This document shows positions 49,459-57,381 of a stretch of 64,000 nucleotides of DNA, in pieces. The notes below the pieces were generated by a model that searched no databases, had not been told where the DNA came from, and saw nothing but the letters and a program-made list of their open reading frames with translations. The first letter of the stretch is position 1, and each line of letters starts with the position of its first letter. A program made the position numbers and the translations under genes. The stretch is from positions 4,092,001-4,156,000 of the forward strand of contig NZ_CP130610.1 of the NCBI RefSeq assembly GCF_030544485.1, given 5' to 3'. This DNA comes from Halomonas sp. HAL1 (GTDB lineage: Bacteria > Pseudomonadota > Gammaproteobacteria > Pseudomonadales > Halomonadaceae).

Positions 49459-50184
49459 ATGGATATTACTAGCGACTCTCACAGCCAGCATATCTCTCGC
49501 CAGTTCAACCAGGAGCTGGAAGAGCTAAAAACCCATCTGATGGCCATGGGCGGTCTGGTAGAGAAGCAAGTGCAGGATGCCGTCTTTGCGCTTCTGGAAG
49601 GCGACACCCGCCTAGCCGAACAAGTGCGCGACAATGATCGTCAGGTCAACGATCTGCAGCTGCAAATCGACGACGAATGCACCCGGGTACTGGCGCGGCG
49701 TCAGCCTGCAGCTTCCGACCTACGCCTGGTGCTCGCCGTTATCCGCGCCACCTCTGATCTTGAGCGAATCGGCGATGAGGCCAGCAAAATCGCCCGTAAC
49801 GCCCTGCTGCTGAGTGAAAGTACCAGCACCATTCGTGGCTTGGTGGAAGTGCGCCACATCAGCGAGCATGTGCGCAAAATGCTGCGCGATGCGCTCACCG
49901 CCTTTGCCCGCTTTGACACCGACCTTGCGATGCAGGTAGTGCGTGAAGACGAGCTGGTTGACGATGAGTACAGCAGCGCAATGCGTTCACTAATGACGTT
50001 TATGATGGAAGACTCGCGCTCGATTACCTCGGTACTCAGCATCATGTGGGTATTGCGCGCTCTGGAGCGTGTGGGCGACCACGCTGACAACCTTGCTGAG
50101 TACGTGGTTTATCTTGTCAAAGGCCTGGATATCCGCCACAGCGACCCCGACAACCTTGACCCGCAAGTGCTAAAAAAGTCTTGA
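49459..50184 (+). CDS. phoU: Phosphate signalling protein PhoU
   Basis: Cytosolic regulator of 241 residues made of two three-helix PhoU repeats, with the metal-binding E/D-x-x-x-D motifs recognisable (ATSDLERIGDEASKIAR and ALERVGDHADNLAEYVV). It passes phosphate status from the Pst transporter to PhoR and dampens the Pho response when phosphate is plentiful. PhoR and PhoB are encoded about 6 kb further on. Last gene of the pst operon. Confidence 0.96.
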   Translation: MDITSDSHSQHISRQFNQELEELKTHLMAMGGLVEKQVQDAVFALLEGDTRLAEQVRDNDRQVNDLQLQIDDECTRVLARRQPAASDLRLVLAVIRATSDLERIGDEASKIARNALLLSESTSTIRGLVEVRHISEHVRKMLRDALTAFARFDTDLAMQVVREDELVDDEYSSAMRSLMTFMMEDSRSITSVLSIMWVLRALERVGDHADNLAEYVVYLVKGLDIRHSDPDNLDPQVLKKS

Positions 50185-50210
50185 CCTGAAAGGGGTTTCC
50201 TCCTGCAATA

Positions 50211-50240
50211 CGTCCAGGCTGTTATGCGGCCTGGACGTTT
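50211..50240 (+). terminator. Terminator after phoU
   Basis: Nine-base stem CGTCCAGGC/GCCTGGACG with a nine-base loop, followed by TTTG, between phoU and cysZ. The T tract is short, so strength is uncertain. Confidence 0.6.
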
Positions 50241-50264
50241 GAATCATAAGGAGTCTCCCCCACC

Positions 50265-51008
50265 ATGCTGGATGCTGTCACTGCGCTTAGCCGAGGTACA
50301 CGATGTGTGTATCAGCCGGGTATGCGCCGCTATATTTTTCTGCCTATTTTAGTCAACCTGATTGTTTACGTCAGCATGTTCAGCTTCGTGCTCAACCGCT
50401 TCGGTGGTTGGCTAGATCATTGGATGAACATGGTGCCAATCTGGCTTGATTGGCTCTCCTGGCTTATCTGGCCTCTTTTCGTGATTAGCCTGTTAGTAGT
50501 GGTGTTTTTTACCTTCACGCTGGTGACCAGCCTGATCGCCGCGCCTTTTTACGGTTTTTTGGCCGCTAAAGTCGAAACCCAATTGACTGGCCGTGAACCG
50601 ATTGATGACCGCAACCTTACTAAAACAGCCATTGATGCCATTGGCCGCGAATTTGTTAAGCTCGCCTATATTTTGCCCCGTGCCGCCGGTCTGTTTGTGC
50701 TTAGCTGGATTCCAGGGCTGAACTTAGTATCCCCCCTGCTGTGGGCGCTATTCTCCGCCTGGATCATGGCCATTACTTATCTAGACTACCCAATGGATAA
50801 CAATAAGGTGACGTTTGCCGATATGCGCCAACGGCTCTCGAAACGCTGGTGGCAAAGCTTAAGCTTTGGGGGCTTAGTCACGCTCATCACCTGGATTCCG
50901 CTGGCCAATCTCTTTCTGATTCCCGGCGCCGTAGCGGGTGCCGTACTGCTCTGGGATGATCACTACAGAGACGTGCATGGAGATGCCCGTGGCATCGCGC
51001 CGCAGTAG
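50265..51008 (+). CDS. cysZ: Sulfate transporter CysZ / EI24-domain protein
   Basis: Inner-membrane protein of 247 residues with four to six hydrophobic segments. The family marks are GTRCVYQPGMRRYIFLPILVNL near the start, TSLIAAPFYGFLAAKVE, and YLDYPMDNNKVTF in the last third. CysZ supplies sulfate for cysteine synthesis in Escherichia coli. It has its own ribosome-binding site (AAGGAG) and a probable terminator in front of it, so it seems independent of the pst genes. Confidence 0.9.
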   Translation: MLDAVTALSRGTRCVYQPGMRRYIFLPILVNLIVYVSMFSFVLNRFGGWLDHWMNMVPIWLDWLSWLIWPLFVISLLVVVFFTFTLVTSLIAAPFYGFLAAKVETQLTGREPIDDRNLTKTAIDAIGREFVKLAYILPRAAGLFVLSWIPGLNLVSPLLWALFSAWIMAITYLDYPMDNNKVTFADMRQRLSKRWWQSLSFGGLVTLITWIPLANLFLIPGAVAGAVLLWDDHYRDVHGDARGIAPQ

Positions 51009-51094
51009 CGCTTATTACCTATGCTCGGCTACTTTGCTACTTTTACGTTCTAAATCGCTCTCCTGCATTCAATCAACAATAAAGGAATAAACGT

Positions 51095-51586
51095 ATGTTC
51101 AAACCCATCGCCTGGCTGGGTGTATGTTTAGTCAGCACTCTCTCTATGGTGGCGTCAGTAGCGATAGCTCACGACGTACAAACAGACACGATGCGTATCG
51201 CACACCCCTTTGCCATACCGACCCCTCCGGGTGCGGCCAATGGGGCCGCCTATTTGGATATCACCGCCTTTTCAGACCCGGTTGCCTTGATTGGCGCAAG
51301 TAGCCCTGCAAGCAAAACAGTGGAGCTTCACGATATGCGAATGGACGGCGACATGATGCGGATGCGTCATGTGGGCGAGCTTCTTATTGAGGCTGGGAAA
51401 ACATACACCATGCGTCCTGGTGGTGGCTTTCACTTAATGCTGATTGGGTTAAGCGAACCATTGACAGAAGGTGACCGATTTCCCATCACACTCACCTTTG
51501 CTGAACAAGGTGATGTGGACATTGAGGTCTGGGTACAAAGCGCCCAGGAAGGTAGTGAAGCCGCGGATGGGCATCACCATCACTGA
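51095..51586 (+). CDS. Periplasmic copper chaperone PCu(A)C family
   Basis: A 163-residue exported protein with a signal peptide ending near residue 26 (AIA-HD). The copper-site pattern is present: histidine and methionine in VELHDMRMDGDMM, a methionine in TYTMRPGG, and HLM in GGGFHLMLIGL. The tail ends in GHHHH, a second possible metal site. Relatives deliver Cu(I) to the CuA centre of cytochrome oxidase. A single gene, followed by a bidirectional terminator shared with the small secreted-protein gene. Confidence 0.92.
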   Translation: MFKPIAWLGVCLVSTLSMVASVAIAHDVQTDTMRIAHPFAIPTPPGAANGAAYLDITAFSDPVALIGASSPASKTVELHDMRMDGDMMRMRHVGELLIEAGKTYTMRPGGGFHLMLIGLSEPLTEGDRFPITLTFAEQGDVDIEVWVQSAQEGSEAADGHHHH

Positions 51587-51667: not shown

Positions 51668-51997
51668 TTACCAGTCAGTGCTATCACCCTCTTCCCGAGT
51701 CAAGTCTTCCGGGCTGATATTGGCCCCACGGGGGTTGCTCCCGTTGCTCTCAGGTGCATCCGATGCCCTGCTAGAGGGAGAAAAATCAAGGCTATCACCA
51801 TCATCACGCGTTAAGTCACGGGTAGCAGGTTGCCGGGTATTGCCAGAAGACGTACGTGGTTTATCGATCACATCCTGCCCAGCTGAGCGATCTTTGTTCA
51901 GTTCAATGGATGAGTGCGCCATTGCCAATGGGCTAGCGATTAAGCCAAAGGAAATACCTGCAACTGCTGCTTTTTTACCCATTTCTTTCAACAACAT
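51668..51997 (-). CDS. Small exported acidic protein with DLTxDxGD motifs (paralogue 1)
   Basis: A 109-residue protein of no family I recognise. ATG at 51997, with GGAGA upstream. The signal peptide (KKAAVAGISFGLIASPLAMA) should be cut near residue 27. The mature part is hydrophilic and carries two copies of a short acidic motif, RDLTRDDGDSLDF and EDLTREEGDSTDW, the second at the C-terminus. The alternating D-x-T-x-D-x-G spacing looks a little like a calcium loop, which is speculation. Two related genes lie upstream on the same strand. Confidence 0.75.
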   Translation of the reverse strand: MLLKEMGKKAAVAGISFGLIASPLAMAHSSIELNKDRSAGQDVIDKPRTSSGNTRQPATRDLTRDDGDSLDFSPSSRASDAPESNGSNPRGANISPEDLTREEGDSTDW

Positions 51998-52449
51998 GAC
52001 GTTCTCCTGATTATCACCAAATACCACTCATGATTCATAAGAGCGGCTATTACTTCTTTACTGTTACAAGTGCTTGTTAGGCCTTGTATGAAAACTGCCC
52101 ACGTTCGACGAACTATTCGTACAAGCCCTCTACTTGTTGCTACCAAAGCACGCATCGTACCAAAACAATAAGTTAAAATATTAATTTATAAAAAACCAAT
52201 AGCTTGAAAAAAAGCACACAATTAAAACTCTCGCAATCTATTTTTGTCAAAAATACTTGTGCAATAATTGCGTATGTGACTTCTGTTACAGAAGCAACTG
52301 AAGCACACAGCACAACAAGTTACGAAAATTTGTTCACTGTAACGGCATTCATACTGTGTGAAGCAGCAGGGAGAGACAATATCTACCACAACAGCACGTA
52401 GTATCTTGAAGCGGATAACCGAAAACAAATTTCGATATACCAGAAAAGC

Positions 52450-52473
52450 TAGACCCCGCATAAGCGGGGTCTA
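52450..52473 (-). terminator. Terminator of paralogue 2
   Basis: Perfect ten-base stem TAGACCCCGC/GCGGGGTCTA with an ATAA loop, followed on the minus strand by GCTTTTC. It lies about 200 bases after the stop of paralogue 2, at the far end of the duplicated 3' element. Confidence 0.85.
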
Positions 52474-52587
52474 AGGACACAATATCTGGACAATAACTAA
52501 CGCTAGCTTCCTTTCCTTTTGCGGGACTCCAGCCTTGGAATTTAACCCTGACCAGCGTTTTGATTGTCGTTTGATTCATTCCTTGAA
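52474..52587 (-). ncRNA. Duplicated 3' element, copy A (possible structured RNA)
   Basis: A block of roughly 110 bases whose close copy lies at 54571-54685, each between a small-protein stop codon and its terminator. The central part, GCGGGACTCCAGCCTTGGAA, differs from the other copy at one position. Arms AACGCT (52499-52504) and AGCGTT (52554-52559) can pair; in the other copy the same arms read AACGTT/AACGTT, so one base pair has changed on both sides. It may be a folded 3' UTR, a small RNA, or simply a recent duplication. In copy A one frame stays open as 76 codons, but in copy B that frame has stops. Confidence 0.4.
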
Positions 52588-52676
52588 TCGACCTATATCC
52601 CTATCGGTGTGACACGCTTCTGCGTGGTTAACTCACACCTCAATCGTAATACATTCCGCTTAATTGCAAACTTTTG

Positions 52677-52979
52677 TTACCAAGCGTTTCCATCGCCTAC
52701 GTCATGCGTCAAATCTTTAGCGGTATATTCTGCTTGAACACTAGTACGCTGGGACTCTGCCTTAATAACATTAGGGCGATCACCTACGTCGTACATCAAA
52801 TCAGATGGGGTAAAATCTGCTTGTTCATGTGTGTGCTGTGATTGAGCCTGAATTGGTTCATCATTAACAGACAGATCTTGATTAGCTTTGATGGAAAAAT
52901 TTGCGAATGCAACTGGGCTCGCCAGCAAACCGAATGCAAGTCCTACAACAGCTGATTTTTTAACAAGGACGTTAAACAT
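52677..52979 (-). CDS. Small exported acidic protein with DLTxDxGD motifs (paralogue 2)
   Basis: A 100-residue exported protein. The signal (KKSAVVGLAFGLLASPVAFA) matches those of the other two paralogues and should be cut near residue 26. The mature part has two motif copies, SDLMYDVGDRPN and KDLTHDVGDGNAW, the second at the C-terminus and ending in tryptophan as in paralogue 1. Upstream are a folded-looking leader and a 17-base palindrome shared with paralogue 3. Function unknown. An envelope or surface-attached place is inferred from the signal only. Confidence 0.75.
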   Translation of the reverse strand: MFNVLVKKSAVVGLAFGLLASPVAFANFSIKANQDLSVNDEPIQAQSQHTHEQADFTPSDLMYDVGDRPNVIKAESQRTSVQAEYTAKDLTHDVGDGNAW

Positions 52980-53007
52980 AGTTAATTACTCCAAATGACT
53001 GCTTAAT

Positions 53008-53057
53008 ACCGCTGAAGTGAAGAAAGAAGGGCCTGCTGGCTTGCTTCTCTCTGCGGT
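53008..53057 (-). promoter_or_regulatory. Shared 5' leader, copy before paralogue 2
   Basis: On the minus strand an outer pair ACCGC...GCGGT encloses about 40 bases with an inner hairpin (GCC-AGCA-GGC) followed by CCTTCTTTCTT. The same plan and spacing recur before paralogue 3. It ends 28 bases before the start codon, so it may be a structured 5' UTR. Confidence 0.45.
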
Positions 53058-53223
53058 GACCTCACTGCCCTGATAAAGCACATACAGTGCCAACTTCTAC
53101 TAAATTTAATAAAATTAAACAAAAACAATTACTTATTTATTATTGTTTGCGCACAATATTAAGCCACTAAAAACAAAACCGCGCAAAATACATGTGCACA
53201 AATGACACATGCGCAAAATTGTC

Positions 53224-53240
53224 TGTGCCTTTATGGCACA
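53224..53240. promoter_or_regulatory. 17-base palindrome upstream of paralogue 2
   Basis: Perfect palindrome TGTGCC-TTTAT-GGCACA, 245 bases upstream of the start codon. A version with two changed bases in one arm stands 216 bases upstream of paralogue 3. It may be a shared operator; the protein that binds is unknown. Confidence 0.5.
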
Positions 53241-53363
53241 CTTATCCTCAAACGCTAATGTTAGAAATTACTTTTAAAGCTAACCTCATCGCGCCGGTCT
53301 ACGTTATCGAGTAATAGACTACTCATGGATGAAAGGGTCGAGAATAGCTCTCGATATGCACGG

Positions 53364-54460
53364 TGGATGCAGTCTCTGAGTGCAACGCTACTTAATGAAT
53401 GGCTGGTGGGCTTTCTTGGTGTTCGCCAATATTTCGCCCAGCACTTCAACTGGGCACCTGAAGTCAAAGCGCTTTCGAGGCCGCATATTCAGCTGTAATG
53501 CAATGGCATCAAGTTCCTCTTGGGTGTGGTGCGACAGATCCGTCCCTTTCGGTAAATACTGCCGTATCAAGCCATTGATGTTTTCATTGCTACCGCGTTG
53601 CCATGGGCTGTGAGGGTCACAAAAGTAGATTGCAACACCCGTTGCTTGGGTAATCTGTGCATGCTTCGCCATTTCTCGGCCTTGGTCATACGTCATGCTC
53701 TTGCGTGCGGCTAGTGGCATTCGGTTGAGTGCTGCGCTAAATCCCTCAACAGCTGAGGTCGCTGTGGCGTCATGTAATTTGGCGAGGATGACGTAGCCAC
53801 TGCTGAGTTCAACTAACGTGCCGACGGCAGAGGCATTGTTCTTACCTTTGATTAAATCGCCCTCCCAGTGGCCTGGCATTTCGCGCTTCTCTATCTCCGG
53901 TGGACGAAGGTGAATGCTCACCATGTCGGGTATTTGGCCACGGCGATCGACCTGACCACGGCGAGGCTTACGGGTCGATTTGCCTTGGCGCAGGCAGTGA
54001 ATCAACTCTTTCTTAAGCTGGCCCACAGGCAAGGCGTAAATGGCGTTGTAGACCGTCTCACGGCAGACGTAAGCATCTTCAAAACTGGGCGTCATCATGC
54101 GTTTGAGCTTGCCTGCTATTTGTTCTGGAGACAAGCGGTTGCGAAGCATATGAATGACCAGCTCAAAGCGTTCACTCCCCAACAGCAGCTTACGTTTTGG
54201 GCGACAAACCATGCGTCGAGCGCAGCGGTGCGTCTGCGCACTATGAGCACAGTAGGCACCTGACTGAGTTTGGTTGCGCCGTACTTCACGGCTGAGGGTA
54301 GACGGAGAACGCCTCAACATGTGAGCAATCTGGCGGAGCCTCATGCCTTGCCTGAGGCTTACCTGTATGGTGGCACGTTCTTCGATGCTGAGTTCTGAAT
54401 AGGACATAAATCCAACACCTTACTAAAATTCTTAGGTGTTGCACTCAGTTTCTGCGGCCA
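53364..54460 (-). mobile_element. IS30-family insertion sequence
   Basis: About 1.1 kb element with one transposase gene. Terminal inverted repeats of about 23 bases: 53364-53386 and 54438-54460, identical in GTTGCACTCAG and CTGC and differing at a few inner and outer positions. No target-site duplication is visible in the flanks, so the ends may have decayed or rearranged. It lies in the gap between paralogue 2 and paralogue 3 and interrupts neither gene. Confidence 0.85.
53388..54407 (-). CDS. IS30-family transposase
   Basis: DDE transposase of 339 residues. The N-terminal helix-turn-helix (SIEERATIQVSLRQGMRLRQIA) is typical of IS30. The catalytic acids are in GHWEGDLIKG (first D), MTYDQGREM (second D) and the last E in RGSNENINGLIRQYLPKGTD. 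The frame is complete, so the element may still be active. The stop codon sits only two bases inside the left inverted repeat. Confidence 0.95.
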   Translation of the reverse strand: MSYSELSIEERATIQVSLRQGMRLRQIAHMLRRSPSTLSREVRRNQTQSGAYCAHSAQTHRCARRMVCRPKRKLLLGSERFELVIHMLRNRLSPEQIAGKLKRMMTPSFEDAYVCRETVYNAIYALPVGQLKKELIHCLRQGKSTRKPRRGQVDRRGQIPDMVSIHLRPPEIEKREMPGHWEGDLIKGKNNASAVGTLVELSSGYVILAKLHDATATSAVEGFSAALNRMPLAARKSMTYDQGREMAKHAQITQATGVAIYFCDPHSPWQRGSNENINGLIRQYLPKGTDLSHHTQEELDAIALQLNMRPRKRFDFRCPVEVLGEILANTKKAHQPFIK

Positions 54461-54472
54461 AGCACTCAAAAA

Positions 54473-54508
54473 GGTAGGTAGGTAGGTAGGTAGGTAGGTA
54501 GGTAGGTA
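54473..54508. repeat. (GGTA)9 tetranucleotide tract
   Basis: Nine perfect tandem copies of GGTA, 13 bases beyond the right end of the IS element and outside any gene. Tracts like this change length by slippage. It lies between the transposase start and the paralogue 3 terminator. Confidence 0.97.
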
Positions 54509-54540
54509 AAAATAGCGAAATGCCCACAAAAAGCAGGCAG

Positions 54541-54570
54541 AAAAAAATTAGACCCCGACTGGCGAGGCCC
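54541..54570 (-). terminator. Terminator of paralogue 3
   Basis: On the minus strand an eight-pair stem with some G-U pairs (GGGCCTCG/CGGGGTCT, loop CCAGT) is followed by AATTTTTTT. It closes the transcription unit beyond the duplicated 3' element. Confidence 0.8.
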
Positions 54571-54685
54571 GATATCAGAATAGACTATAGGTAATAACTA
54601 ACGTTAGCTTCCACTCCTTGTGCGGGACTCCAACCTTGGAATTAACCCTGACTAACGTTTGATTTCCTAGTGATTCATCCTTGAA
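54571..54685 (-). ncRNA. Duplicated 3' element, copy B (possible structured RNA)
   Basis: Second copy of the block at 52474-52587. Arms AACGTTAG (54600-54607) and CTAACGTT (54652-54659) form a perfect eight-base stem around a loop that contains GCGGGACTCCAACCTTGGAA. A good terminator lies directly downstream on the minus strand, so either a 3' UTR or a short independent RNA is possible. Stops in all relevant frames argue against a peptide. Confidence 0.4.
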
Positions 54686-54777
54686 CCTGAAAAGCATCCT
54701 TGCCTTTGTAACATCCTGTCAATCACCCTTTCATCCGTTGAAAGGACATTCTTTGATATCTAAATGATAATTAACAA

Positions 54778-55092
54778 TTAGCTACCGCTGTTTTCTTCTA
54801 CAAGCTCATCGTCGTCATACTCAGCATCATCTGAGTGACCGCTTGACTGAGGATCCATGTCGCTGGCTTCATCACCTTCGTCATGGGTTAAATCATTAGT
54901 CATGTCTTTGGTATTATGACCGTCTGAACTATCAGTACCTTGGGGATCCATTGGTTGCTCTTCAGCTGTAATTCCCTGATTTTCATCAATAGCTGAATTT
55001 TCATCTGTTTGAGCAAATGCTAACGGGCTTGCCATCAAACCAAAAGATACACCTAAAATGCCAGCTTTCTTGAGTAAATCCTTGGACATCAT
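54778..55092 (-). CDS. Small exported acidic protein with a DLTxDxGD motif (paralogue 3)
   Basis: A 104-residue exported protein read from the ATG at 55092, which has GGAGG six bases upstream; a second ATG follows directly. The signal (KKAGILGVSFGLMASPLAFA) is cut near residue 27. The mature protein is very acidic and lacks cysteine. It has one motif copy, NDLTHDEGDEASDM, and a tail rich in Asp, Glu and Ser. It differs from paralogues 1 and 2 in lacking the C-terminal motif and tryptophan. Function unknown. Confidence 0.72.
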   Translation of the reverse strand: MMSKDLLKKAGILGVSFGLMASPLAFAQTDENSAIDENQGITAEEQPMDPQGTDSSDGHNTKDMTNDLTHDEGDEASDMDPQSSGHSDDAEYDDDELVEENSGS

Positions 55093-55117
55093 ATTCCACC
55101 TCCGATCGCTGTTTATT

Positions 55118-55170
55118 ACCGCTTGGTTAAGAAAGAAGGGCTTATTATAAAAGCCAGCATTTCCTGCGGT
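55118..55170 (-). promoter_or_regulatory. Shared 5' leader, copy before paralogue 3
   Basis: Outer pair ACCGC...GCGGT as before paralogue 2, with an inner hairpin GGCTT-TTATAAT-AAGCC whose arms differ in sequence from the other copy but still pair, followed by CCTTCTTTCTT. It ends 25 bases before the start codon. Confidence 0.45.
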
Positions 55171-55307
55171 CGTCTTCCTTATCTTTAACAATGCAGCGGG
55201 CATGCCAAATGCCAAAAAACAGGATAAAGCAATTAAAAATCAATGTATTAATTAAAACAAGCCAAGCTGTAGCGTTCTGTTAAAATAGAAATACCAAGCT
55301 TAAAAGC

Positions 55308-55324
55308 TGTGTAAAAATGGCACA
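55308..55324. promoter_or_regulatory. 17-base palindrome-like site upstream of paralogue 3
   Basis: TGTGTA-AAAAT-GGCACA, matching the perfect palindrome at 53224 except in two bases of one arm and in the spacer. It lies at a similar distance from the start codon. Confidence 0.4.
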
Positions 55325-55402
55325 TGAGTAAACTCTTACCAACCTTACATGCCAATATTACACACCTTTACAGGTATGGTGCGAGAGGTCGCTTACGGAG
55401 CC

Positions 55403-56689
55403 CTATACAAGACGTGAAGCGGGAAATGAGCAGCGAAAAAGCGCCCCTTTACCCGGGTGGGATTCAATCTGTAATTGCGCATCGTGGCGTAATAGTACGT
55501 GCTTAACGATCGCCAAGCCTAAGCCCGTGCCGCCAGTTGCGGTGCTACGGCCTTTATCGACACGGTAAAAACGTTCGGTTAGTCGGGGAATATGGACGGG
55601 ATCGATGCCTTCACCATTGTCTTCCACATCAATACAGCCGCCGCCAGTCGCGCTAGCTTTCCAGCGTAAGGTGATGTGGCTACCTGCTGGCGTATAGCGA
55701 ACGGCATTGAAGGCGAGGTTAGAGATGGCGCTACGAATCTCCTGTTCACTACCCAGCAGGCGTGCATCGCTTTCAAGCGCGACAGTAATGGTATGACGCT
55801 GATTCGACAGCGCCAGCGCATCATCACAGATGCTTTGTAGCAAAGGCCCTAGCGACAGCGGATGGTGATCTTTCCCCCCCTGGTCGATTTCTAACCGAGA
55901 GAGCAGCAATAGATCATTGACCAGGTTTTGCATTCGCTGCGTCTGTTCCTGCATCTGGTTGATGCTTTTGCCCAAACGCGGAGGCAACTGGTCAGCAATA
56001 TCGCTGTAGGTTTCCAGATAGCCGGAAAGGACGGTTAGCGGCGTGCGCAGCTCGTGAGAGACGTTGGCAACAAAGTCGCGCCGCATCTGTTCCAGGCGAT
56101 GCAAGCGCGTGATATCCCGGGCCATTACCAGCCGTTCATCGTCACCGTACAGGGTAATTTGATACTGCAGGATTCGACGCTCGTCAATCGGCGATGTCAG
56201 CGTTAGCGGCTCGCCATACTCCCGCGCATTGAAGTAGCGGATGAAACTTGGCTCGCGCAGTAGGTTGGTAATGTGCTGACCACGATCATGGGCAGTTTGT
56301 AGCCCTAGCATGTTCGTTGCAGCGCTGTTCCACCACTCTAGATCACCGTGGCGGTCGAGCATGACCACACTGTCACGCATCGCTTCAGACGACTCTTGAA
56401 TACGGGCCAAGGTAGCACGCAGCCGACTTTGCGTTATACGCTGGCTTTTCTGATAGCGGTATAAACGATCAAACAATTCACCCCACATACCGTGAGCGGC
56501 AGGCGGCTCATCGTGAGGATGTAGGGTTAGCCATAAATAAAGTTCGCGTAGCTGCCGCAAGTGATAAAACAGACATACTGCAAGCCCTGCCGCAAGCCCT
56601 AGCCCTGCTGAGCCCAATAACCAGCCTAAACAAGTACCCAGTGTGGCCAGCCACGCTAGACGCCACAGTTCACGGCTCCATAGGCGCAC
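55403..56689 (-). CDS. phoR: Phosphate regulon sensor kinase PhoR
   Basis: Membrane histidine kinase of 428 residues. A hydrophobic N-terminal hairpin (about residues 10-45) replaces a large periplasmic sensor, as usual in PhoR. Then come a PAS domain (about 95-205), the dimerisation domain with phospho-acceptor histidine in VANVSHELRTPLTV (about residue 215), and the ATPase domain with N-box NLAFNAVRYTP, G1 DNGEGI and G2 GGTGLGLAIVKHV. It follows phoB after 2 bases. It senses phosphate through PstB and PhoU. Confidence 0.95.
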   Translation of the reverse strand: MRLWSRELWRLAWLATLGTCLGWLLGSAGLGLAAGLAVCLFYHLRQLRELYLWLTLHPHDEPPAAHGMWGELFDRLYRYQKSQRITQSRLRATLARIQESSEAMRDSVVMLDRHGDLEWWNSAATNMLGLQTAHDRGQHITNLLREPSFIRYFNAREYGEPLTLTSPIDERRILQYQITLYGDDERLVMARDITRLHRLEQMRRDFVANVSHELRTPLTVLSGYLETYSDIADQLPPRLGKSINQMQEQTQRMQNLVNDLLLLSRLEIDQGGKDHHPLSLGPLLQSICDDALALSNQRHTITVALESDARLLGSEQEIRSAISNLAFNAVRYTPAGSHITLRWKASATGGGCIDVEDNGEGIDPVHIPRLTERFYRVDKGRSTATGGTGLGLAIVKHVLLRHDAQLQIESHPGKGALFRCSFPASRLV

Positions 56690-56691
56690 AT

Positions 56692-57381
56692 TTACACCCG
56701 TGCAGAGAAACGGTATCCGGTACCCCGAACCGTTTGAATCAGGTTTTGATGCACATCGCCCAGCGCTTTTCGTAAGCGTCGAATATGCACATCGACCGTA
56801 CGCTCTTCGACATACACATTACCACCCCATACTTGGTCAAGCAGTTGGCTACGTGTGTAAGCGCGCTCTTGATGGGTCATAAAAAACTGCAGCAGACGAT
56901 ACTCGGTCGGACCCATTTCCAACGCTTTACCGTGAGCGCTTACCCGGTGGCTTACCGGATCAAGCAACAGGCCATTAATCTCAATCGGGTCCTCAACGCC
57001 ACGCGGTGTCGCACGACGCAGCACCGCTTTCAGCCGTGCCACCAATTCGCGTGGAGAAAAAGGCTTGGTGATGTAATCATCGGCACCGGCTTCAAGCCCT
57101 TGGATCTTATTATCCTCTTCGCCTTTAGCGGTCAGCATAATAATCGGGATCTCGGCGGTAGCTTCTTCGCGCTTCAAACGCCTAGCCAGCTCAATACCGC
57201 TGGTGCCAGGCATCATCCAGTCAAGCAGCAATAAATCAGGTTGGTGGTCAACCACCATGGCATGAGCATCCTGGGCGTTATCTGCTTCGAGCACACGGTA
57301 GTCAGCCATTTCCAGCGCTACCGCGATCATCTCGCGAATCGACGATTCATCATCGACAATCAGAACGGTTTTGGCGGTCAT
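56692..57381 (-). CDS. phoB: Phosphate regulon response regulator PhoB
   Basis: OmpR-family response regulator of 229 residues. The receiver has DDESS, the phosphorylated aspartate in [12 protein letters not shown] (about residue 54), and the conserved lysine in FSPRELVAR with KPF just before it. The winged-helix C-terminus has [18 protein letters not shown] and ends [13 protein letters not shown] strong Pho box about 85 bases upstream points to autoregulation. Likely targets in the window are pst and phoBR. Confidence 0.97.

Follow-up and report, generated by a model that had tools for sequence, protein, structure and literature searches.

Candidate CsrA-decoy mRNAs for small exported proteins in a predicted sigma-54 regulon of Halomonadaceae

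Noncoding small RNAs (sRNAs) under a kinase/NtrC-type regulator and sigma-54 are known from CrcZ/CrcY (CbrAB) and GlmY/GlmZ (GlrKR), with CrcZ serving as a protein decoy, and sigma-54 control of exported proteins by such a pair is known from PrsK/PrsR-RpoN and the PEP-CTERM proteins. The mRNAs known to titrate CsrA are single messages with sites in their leaders, and the Salmonella fim leader is reportedly one that binds or titrates CsrA. The locus described here lies in a window of 64,000 nucleotides (nt) from Halomonas sp. HAL1 (contig NZ_CP130610.1, positions 4,092,001 to 4,156,000, forward strand), and comprises three genes for short exported proteins, of which genes 2 and 3 have both a sigma-54 element and an upstream enhancer, and are followed after their stop codons by a GGA-rich stretch. 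From these sequence features, we lean towards reading genes 2 and 3 as part of a sigma-54 regulon of protein-coding CsrA-decoy mRNAs in Halomonadaceae. The CsrA of one Halomonas species is given as 86.44% identical to that of E. coli in PMC12889724, and CsrA recognises GGA in stem-loops (PMC10339803). The three genes and their elements, in window coordinates, are as follows (aa, amino acids).

51668..51997, minus strand: gene 1 (class A), exported 109-aa protein
52148..52162, minus strand: weak sigma-54-like site of gene 1, TGGTACGATGCGTGC
52443..52473, minus strand: terminator-like hairpin and T-rich tail of gene 2, overlapping the module end (by eye)
52461..52604, minus strand: conserved GGA-rich RNA module, 3' region of gene 2
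52677..52979, minus strand: gene 2 (class B), exported 100-aa protein
52980..53077, minus strand: 5' leader of gene 2, with a single GGA, which by the criterion used is not in a hairpin loop
53078..53092, minus strand: sigma-54 -24/-12 element of gene 2, TGGCACTGTATGTGC
53193..53211, minus strand: enhancer of gene 2, CATGTGTCATTTGTGCACA
54540..54572, minus strand: terminator-like hairpin and T-run of gene 3, overlapping the module end
54562..54704, minus strand: conserved GGA-rich RNA module, 3' region of gene 3
54778..55092, minus strand: gene 3 (class C), exported 104-aa protein
55093..55192, minus strand: 5' leader of gene 3; of its four GGA, one falls in the Shine-Dalgarno region and, by the same criterion, none in a hairpin loop
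55193..55207, minus strand: sigma-54 -24/-12 element of gene 3, TGGCATGCCCGCTGC
55308..55326, minus strand: enhancer of gene 3, CATGTGCCATTTTTACACA

The promoter architecture, the 3' module, its versions lacking an open reading frame (ORF), and the linkage and co-occurrence with a kinase/regulator pair are all directly visible in the sequence. The strict sigma-54 consensus TGGCAYN6TGC is found upstream of 100 of the 185 distinct family members, where the reverse strand gives one and shuffles 0.2, and a relaxed site is present 60–140 bp before the start in 99 of the 143 members with enough flank (B 8/8, C 27/27, D 24/24, H 25/44, A 11/24, others 4/16). The enhancer CATGTGYCA accompanies 95 of these 99 sites, and as it was taken as the site scoring best against the consensus, with ATGTG required, its conserved letters are partly a matter of construction, though its position is not. 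The spacing from enhancer to -24 element is 113–119 bp in 75 members, 106–110 bp in 19 and 83 bp in one, the two main spacings differing by around one helical turn. The enhancer spans subfamilies whose mature protein parts cannot be aligned, with the orthologues among them not being independent. An extended enhancer pattern, CATGTGYCA-N4-T-N2-MCA, joined to the sigma-54 site, gave four matches at three promoters in this genome and none in the control. In 25 genus genomes there were 70 matches, some of them one promoter matched twice or lying in coding-looking stretches, against 6 with a reversed control, and in 13 genomes of other families there were 2 against 8 for the control. The joined pattern missed a further, fourth family gene (G000:C1:3557701), whose enhancer has the variant form CATGTGCCT. 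Between enhancer and promoter, a site pattern for IHF was found in 25 of the 99 when strict and 53 when relaxed, figures that come with no shuffle comparison. Two other forms of control were set aside. A GacA-type box, in either a strict or a relaxed pattern, was found within 250 bp upstream in none of 175 enhancer-pattern promoters. Control by PhoB was suggested by location; family genes elsewhere share the enhancer, and no Pho-box search was made.

It is very probable that these promoters form a sigma-54 regulon under the NtrC-type regulator encoded at G000:C1:3078867-3080279. This is one of eight strong enhancer-binding-protein matches in the genome (three weaker ones being left out), and its gene lies downstream of a histidine kinase gene and faces, 163 bp on, a gene for an acidic lipoprotein, upstream of which the enhancer is found. 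For none of the 25 NCBIfam models shown does the regulator reach the cut-off. Six loci from other genera, fetched for the family signal, have regulator orthologues (71–73%) at 56–220 bp from family genes, with the kinase (66–74%) behind. Upstream of the linked family gene, enhancer and sigma-54 site were seen by eye to occur together in two of these loci (L126, L152) and the sigma-54 site alone in L147 and L157, where the searched stretch ends nearby, with neither found in L132 and L154. As a separate observation, the lipoprotein (L215:2641-3117, minus strand; G000:C1 about 3080445-3080921) carries the motif GFGEGTDPMPGD and resembles stretches of other-genus family members (L132, L154, L126, L147), and a lipoprotein reading frame was seen by eye between promoter and family gene in L147, L152 and L157. 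The lipoprotein is perhaps an accessory protein of the kinase.

Across 201 genomes, family and regulator occur together in 75, the family only in 6, the regulator only in 2 and neither in 118 (Fisher p 3e-45, uncorrected for shared ancestry). Eight regulator homologues of 55–57% identity were set aside in this table, and counting them gives 75, 6, 10 and 110 (p 2e-36, likewise uncorrected). The two regulator-only genomes, G014 and G052, have the RNA. Among the 53 good genus genomes, the RNA is present exactly where a full-length regulator is, 47 having both and 6 neither, and in one of these six the regulator is matched over residues 140–469 only. Eight of the nine RNA-less genus genomes are without the regulator, and in the ninth (G030) the match covers only residues 140–469. 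A second NtrC-type regulator, by comparison, is present in 60 of the 61 genus genomes and in all 53 good ones.

The 3' module was modelled over 143 positions from 29 copies, and of its 13 predicted pairs three show two-sided changes, one shows one-sided changes only and nine are invariant. It is present in 52 of the 61 genus genomes and, with strict filters, in no other genus among 121 genomes of the family. In the 220 nt of the gene 3 3' region there are eight GGA, four of which are in hairpin loops, and the gene 1 3' region has one such GGA-loop. Per 220 nt of 3' region, GGA-loops number 3.14 in class C, 1.11 in B, 1.12 in D, 1.14 in H and 0.62 in O, compared with 0.30 in 825 control 3' regions, taken from the other large ORFs of the loci fetched, which makes the class C enrichment roughly tenfold; TCC-loops, counted as a control, number 0.04–0.48. 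Against dinucleotide shuffles of the 97 (of 146) 3' regions in which a terminator was found, GGA falls in loops 89 times vs 14.4 (standard deviation 3.5) in C, 27 vs 5.4 in H, 12 vs 1.9 in D, 9 vs 3.0 in B, 4 vs 1.6 in O and 3 vs 1.6 in A, with TCC near or under chance. The tally of five-pair hairpins, in which nested arms were counted more than once, contains 137 with GGA, with 36 different left arms, vs 10 for TCC, and AGGA and AAGGAT are the commonest of the GGA loops. In the leaders, GGA-loops exceed mononucleotide shuffles in C (29 vs 9.4), D (19 vs 5.8) and A (8 vs 3.6). CsrA is the likely partner of the GGA-rich RNAs, and we incline, with less assurance, to decoying of CsrA as their real function. 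Weak matches to the Rfam RsmY family (up to 36.8 bits, with a cut-off of 57) were discarded as evidence, as they occur on either strand and mainly over the terminator.

The module also occurs on its own. In ten genus genomes, no family ORF was found by a signal hidden Markov model (HMM, E<=0.1) in the surrounding 2.3–3 kb, with some of these genomes holding family genes elsewhere. Nine of the ten keep the promoter, the C of CATGTG lying 117–121 bp before a sigma-54 site that is itself 69–183 nt before the module. The tenth (G033) has two modules, with no sigma-54 site found by pattern within 700 nt. Three of the ten modules were seen between phoR and cysZ. Since promoter and module are kept at loci without the ORF, the ORF is the less constant part. 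The ORF-less modules carry 1.88 GGA-loops per 220 nt (8 sequences). Behind the third enhancer promoter of this genome (G000:C1:203314) there is no evident protein gene, but a stretch of around 230 nt that contains seven GGA and finishes in a terminator-like structure. This separate (type-1) RNA has a fold z of -4.5. Similar GGA-rich RNAs were seen by eye behind the enhancer in several relatives, and the type-1 RNAs carry 1.75 GGA-loops per 220 nt with TCC at 0.00 (8 sequences). The type-1 promoter lies about 1.2 kb past the end of the ntrC gene, and NtrC may be a further activator.

The alternative that survives best, although we consider it unlikely, accepts the same sigma-54 regulon and gives the GGA hairpins a role in translational control or mRNA stability only, with CsrA binding its own targets and no meaningful decoy. 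GGA is indeed present in the leaders and Shine-Dalgarno regions, and known CsrA targets often carry leader sites (PMC7652899). However, the loop sites of class C are concentrated after the stop codon, and in ten genomes the module has no adjoining family ORF. Somewhat more doubtful is that the 3' module is a structured RNA of another role, either an Hfq-dependent base-pairing sRNA from an mRNA 3' end or the partner of a protein other than CsrA, with GGA incidental. sRNAs from mRNA 3' ends are known (PMC9438474), the invariant module core AGGGT..TCCANGG.TGGA..CCC is longer than CsrA requires, and the gene 2 module has little GGA in its loops. Against this, the 3' regions of class H and of L051, in which the module was not seen, share GGA loops on different stems, and the type-1 RNAs under the same enhancer are GGA-rich too.

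Several observations nevertheless weigh against the interpretation of genes 2 and 3 as messages of a CsrA-decoy regulon. On the side of transcription, no CATGTG enhancer was found within 403 bp upstream of gene 1, and its sigma-54-like site, a relaxed match only, is judged weak because the enhancer is absent; in the promoter of the lipoprotein gene next to the regulator, the -12 element is imperfect. The family occurs with no close regulator in six genomes, G047 and G054 (80% and 74% complete) have the RNA with no regulator found, and the co-occurrence counts are uncorrected for shared ancestry. On the side of the RNA, the 220 nt of the gene 2 3' region contain six GGA and only one GGA-loop, equal to TCC-loops, and neither the gene 2 nor the gene 3 leader has a GGA-loop. 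The 3' regions of class A show no GGA-loop excess (0.16 per 220 nt vs 0.30 in controls), and the ORF-less modules carry TCC-loops at 0.88. Other trinucleotides are also enriched, namely AGG (110 vs 17.5) and GGT (39 vs 12.4) in the 3' loops of class C, GAA and GAG in those of class B, GAA in class C leaders, equally with GGA (30 vs 11.0), and GAA and AGA in class D leaders. Leader GGA-loops are not in excess in class B (2 vs 2.8) and are little so in O (11 vs 7.2). Finally, the gene 3 transcript end folds no better than shuffles (z -0.85), and these RNAs match no Rfam family at the gathering score.

The preliminary description of this stretch had reported three same-strand genes with nearly the same signal sequence and with D-L-T-x-[DE]-x-G-D motifs, and had proposed an undescribed exported family with no known domain. 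The first statement is confirmed, with the motif widened to D-L-x-x-[DE]-x-G-D, and the second holds on the domain searches. The three ORFs encode 109, 100 and 104 aa, and the proteins have no Pfam match at E<=1 and are above no NCBIfam cut-off. Gene 1 carries DLTRDDGD and DLTREEGD, gene 2 DLMYDVGD (off consensus) and DLTHDVGD, and gene 3 a single DLTHDEGD; genes 1 and 2 end in tryptophan (GDSTDW and GDGNAW) and gene 3 does not. An alignment of the three proteins has 21 invariant columns, around half of them within the signal peptide. The resemblance is not a chance one. A phmmer search with the gene 1 protein listed 44 proteins at E<=1, counting the query itself. A three-sequence HMM found the family in 49 of the 61 genus genomes, and a 20-sequence HMM found it in 81 of 201 Halomonadaceae genomes, covering 10 of 24 genera. 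Homologues outside the locus are therefore frequent in Halomonadaceae, and a lack of them, which would have spoken against a family, can be discounted. Order-wide, 7 of 244 genomes matched the 20-sequence HMM, six being Halomonadaceae, and the seventh match (G445), comprising 43 start positions of a 261-aa protein, appears unrelated and was dropped as a member. The rows dropped were this one (L158; acid phosphatase-like by eye) and two copies of one gene (L117, L147) whose cleavage site is outside the search expression, leaving the 185 distinct members in the fetched loci, 184 of which entered the identity calculations as one has an unread residue.

Most signal peptides are variants of MMSKEFLKKLGILGVSFGLxASPLAFA, followed by mature parts that are mostly low-complexity and acidic, with a median net charge of -23 (range -51 to +4) and 30.9% Glu+Asp over the 185 members; cysteine is found in only one. 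Mean pairwise identity is 0.63 in the signal vs 0.17 in the mature part over all 184 members, and 0.87 vs 0.40 in class C (41 gene-3-type sequences), with 0.88/0.54 in D, 0.79/0.27 in H (mostly other genera), 0.53/0.41 in A and 0.76/0.74 in B. Classes C, D and H thus show a strong contrast, and A and B a weak one. Of the earlier suggestion that only signal and motif are selected, the part concerning the signal agrees with the class C figures, but several subfamilies lack the motif. Third-base identity at fourfold sites in the signal is 0.53 in C (9 sites), 0.48 in D (8) and 0.60 in H (7), compared with 0.38–0.49 in the controls phoR, phoB, phoU, cysZ and PCuAC. This is slightly above the controls and from few sites, suggesting that it is mainly the amino-acid sequence that is conserved, and selection on the signal peptide is likely to act at the level of the protein. 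On the same figures, RNA-level constraint on the signal-coding region may play a part, though not as the main cause. The signal peptides of the neighbouring PCuAC are variable by eye.

That the family is defined by DLTxDxGD as a binding or sorting tag, with the RNA features incidental, as first proposed, is highly improbable, for although the motif is repeated and is C-terminal in two of the three window genes, it is by eye absent from Glu-rich and other-genus members that keep promoter and signal. The proposal lacks support because many members are without the motif, whilst the signal, the enhancer-dependent promoter, a GGA-rich 3' region (in several classes) and a C-terminal tryptophan recur; tryptophan ends 108 of the 185 members, in several classes and in C-termini that are otherwise unlike, and W, S or M ends 149. 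A calcium or sorting tag was likewise rejected, the motif not being general across the family. By eye, DLTxDxGD is not an EF-hand-type DxDxDG loop, in line with the lack of a Pfam match, and no C-terminal signal of PEP-CTERM/LPXTG type (transmembrane helix and basic tail) was seen in members. Two further observations concern individual members. L050, L054 and L093 have the family signal and repeats such as PRGAAAPTGNKEEWEEGGGEGEGPV, with no enhancer promoter found, and in several genus genomes a class D (Glu-rich) gene directly precedes a gene for an acyltransferase-like membrane protein (e.g., L035 7684-7983; by eye).

Returning to the reading of the locus as a CsrA-decoy regulon, a mechanism can be outlined in which a histidine kinase and an NtrC-type protein would activate sigma-54 promoters through CATGTGYCA-N4-T-N2-MCA, the regulator binding the enhancer. 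Two kinds of transcript would result, the first being GGA-rich RNAs of the CsrB/RsmZ type with no evident protein gene, and the second consisting of a leader, an ORF for a short acidic low-complexity exported protein and a similar GGA-rich 3' module. We infer that in the second kind a single transcript runs from the promoter through ORF and module, that the RNAs are bound by CsrA, and that their function is decoying and not translational control alone. On firing of the kinase the RNAs would titrate CsrA, and this would lift the CsrA block on messages with leader GGA in a feed-forward manner. The exported protein would then be produced with its strongly conserved signal peptide and work in the periplasm, probably in envelope protection or in periplasmic feedback to the kinase. 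A bolder and rather unlikely extension is that one sigma-54 transcript both titrates CsrA via its CsrB-like 3' module and encodes the exported protein, with the conserved signal coupling the state of the RNA to Sec export. In that case the amount of CsrA held would depend on translation and membrane targeting, and the protein or the lipoprotein would feed back on the kinase, making the system an envelope-export sensor that drives the Csr network.

The remaining features of the window locus are given below.

49459..51586, plus strand: flank, one side of the conserved locus, with phoU, cysZ-like (EI24) and PCuAC
53388..54407, minus strand: transposase gene, its ORF lying clear of the gene 3 module on one side and of the gene 2 enhancer on the other
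55403..57381, minus strand: flank, other side of the conserved locus, with phoR and phoB

The transposase has HTH_38 and rve domains (Pfam) and is presumably of IS30 type. In 29 genus stretches the pho locus has the order phoB-phoR-[C]-[B]-[A]-(PCuAC)-cysZ-phoU, where B, A and PCuAC are optional, and class C adjoins phoR in all 28 stretches where phoR was found. In the gap separating the transposase gene from the gene 3 module there is a tract of GGTA tetranucleotides (window 54473-54508); its length differs in the relatives G019 and G020, pointing to a possible variable tract. The class C leaders of the pho locus contain AAGGAAGA/TCTTCCTT and ACCGC/GCGGT arms, seen by eye as a possible H-type pseudoknot arrangement.

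If the proposed reading is true, this would be a regulon of CsrA-decoy RNAs doubling as messages, and it would link the Csr network of Halomonas, an industrial host, with a two-component system acting through sigma-54, either alongside GacA or in its place. Sister genomes sharing promoter and RNA, with or without the ORF, offer a natural experiment. It is also unusual that the signal peptide is the best conserved part of these exported proteins, as signal peptides usually evolve fast. In the literature searches, neither the family nor the RNA was described in any title or abstract opening that was matched.

Compared with known systems, the RNAs are similar to CsrB/CsrC and RsmX/Y/Z in having several GGA in hairpin loops, a terminator-like end and more than one such RNA per genome. 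The GGA-loop character of CsrB/RsmZ is strong in class C, weaker in B, D, H, type-1 and ORF-less RNAs, and not seen in A. They differ from CsrB/RsmZ in that genes 2 and 3 carry an ORF, although the type-1 and ORF-less loci are without a family ORF, and in having sigma-54 and an enhancer with no GacA-type box and no Rfam match at the gathering score. As with CrcZ/CrcY and GlmY/GlmZ, a small RNA goes together with a kinase/NtrC-type regulator and sigma-54, with the regulator here scoring 369.1 bits against 763 for the GlrR NCBIfam model. Exported proteins under sigma-54 and such a pair recall PrsK/PrsR-RpoN, but no PEP-CTERM-like tail was seen by eye and the regulator scores 381.1 against a cut-off of 502.6 (PEP_resp_reg). 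Unlike the known CsrA-titrating mRNAs, what is proposed here is a regulon, and its 3' module is also present at loci lacking the ORF; as with the Campylobacter flagellin mRNA, a message would be tied into the control of CsrA activity. Dual-function sRNAs such as SR1 and Spot 42 also combine regulation and a small protein in one RNA, as is predicted here, though the known ones act by base pairing, and the 2023 review cited for them places decoy-plus-message RNAs among the kinds possibly yet to be discovered (PMC10339803). Decoys rich in GGA, sRNAs driven by sigma-54 and dual-function sRNAs are already known singly, and it is their combination in one regulon that, judging by the literature searches, appears to be new.

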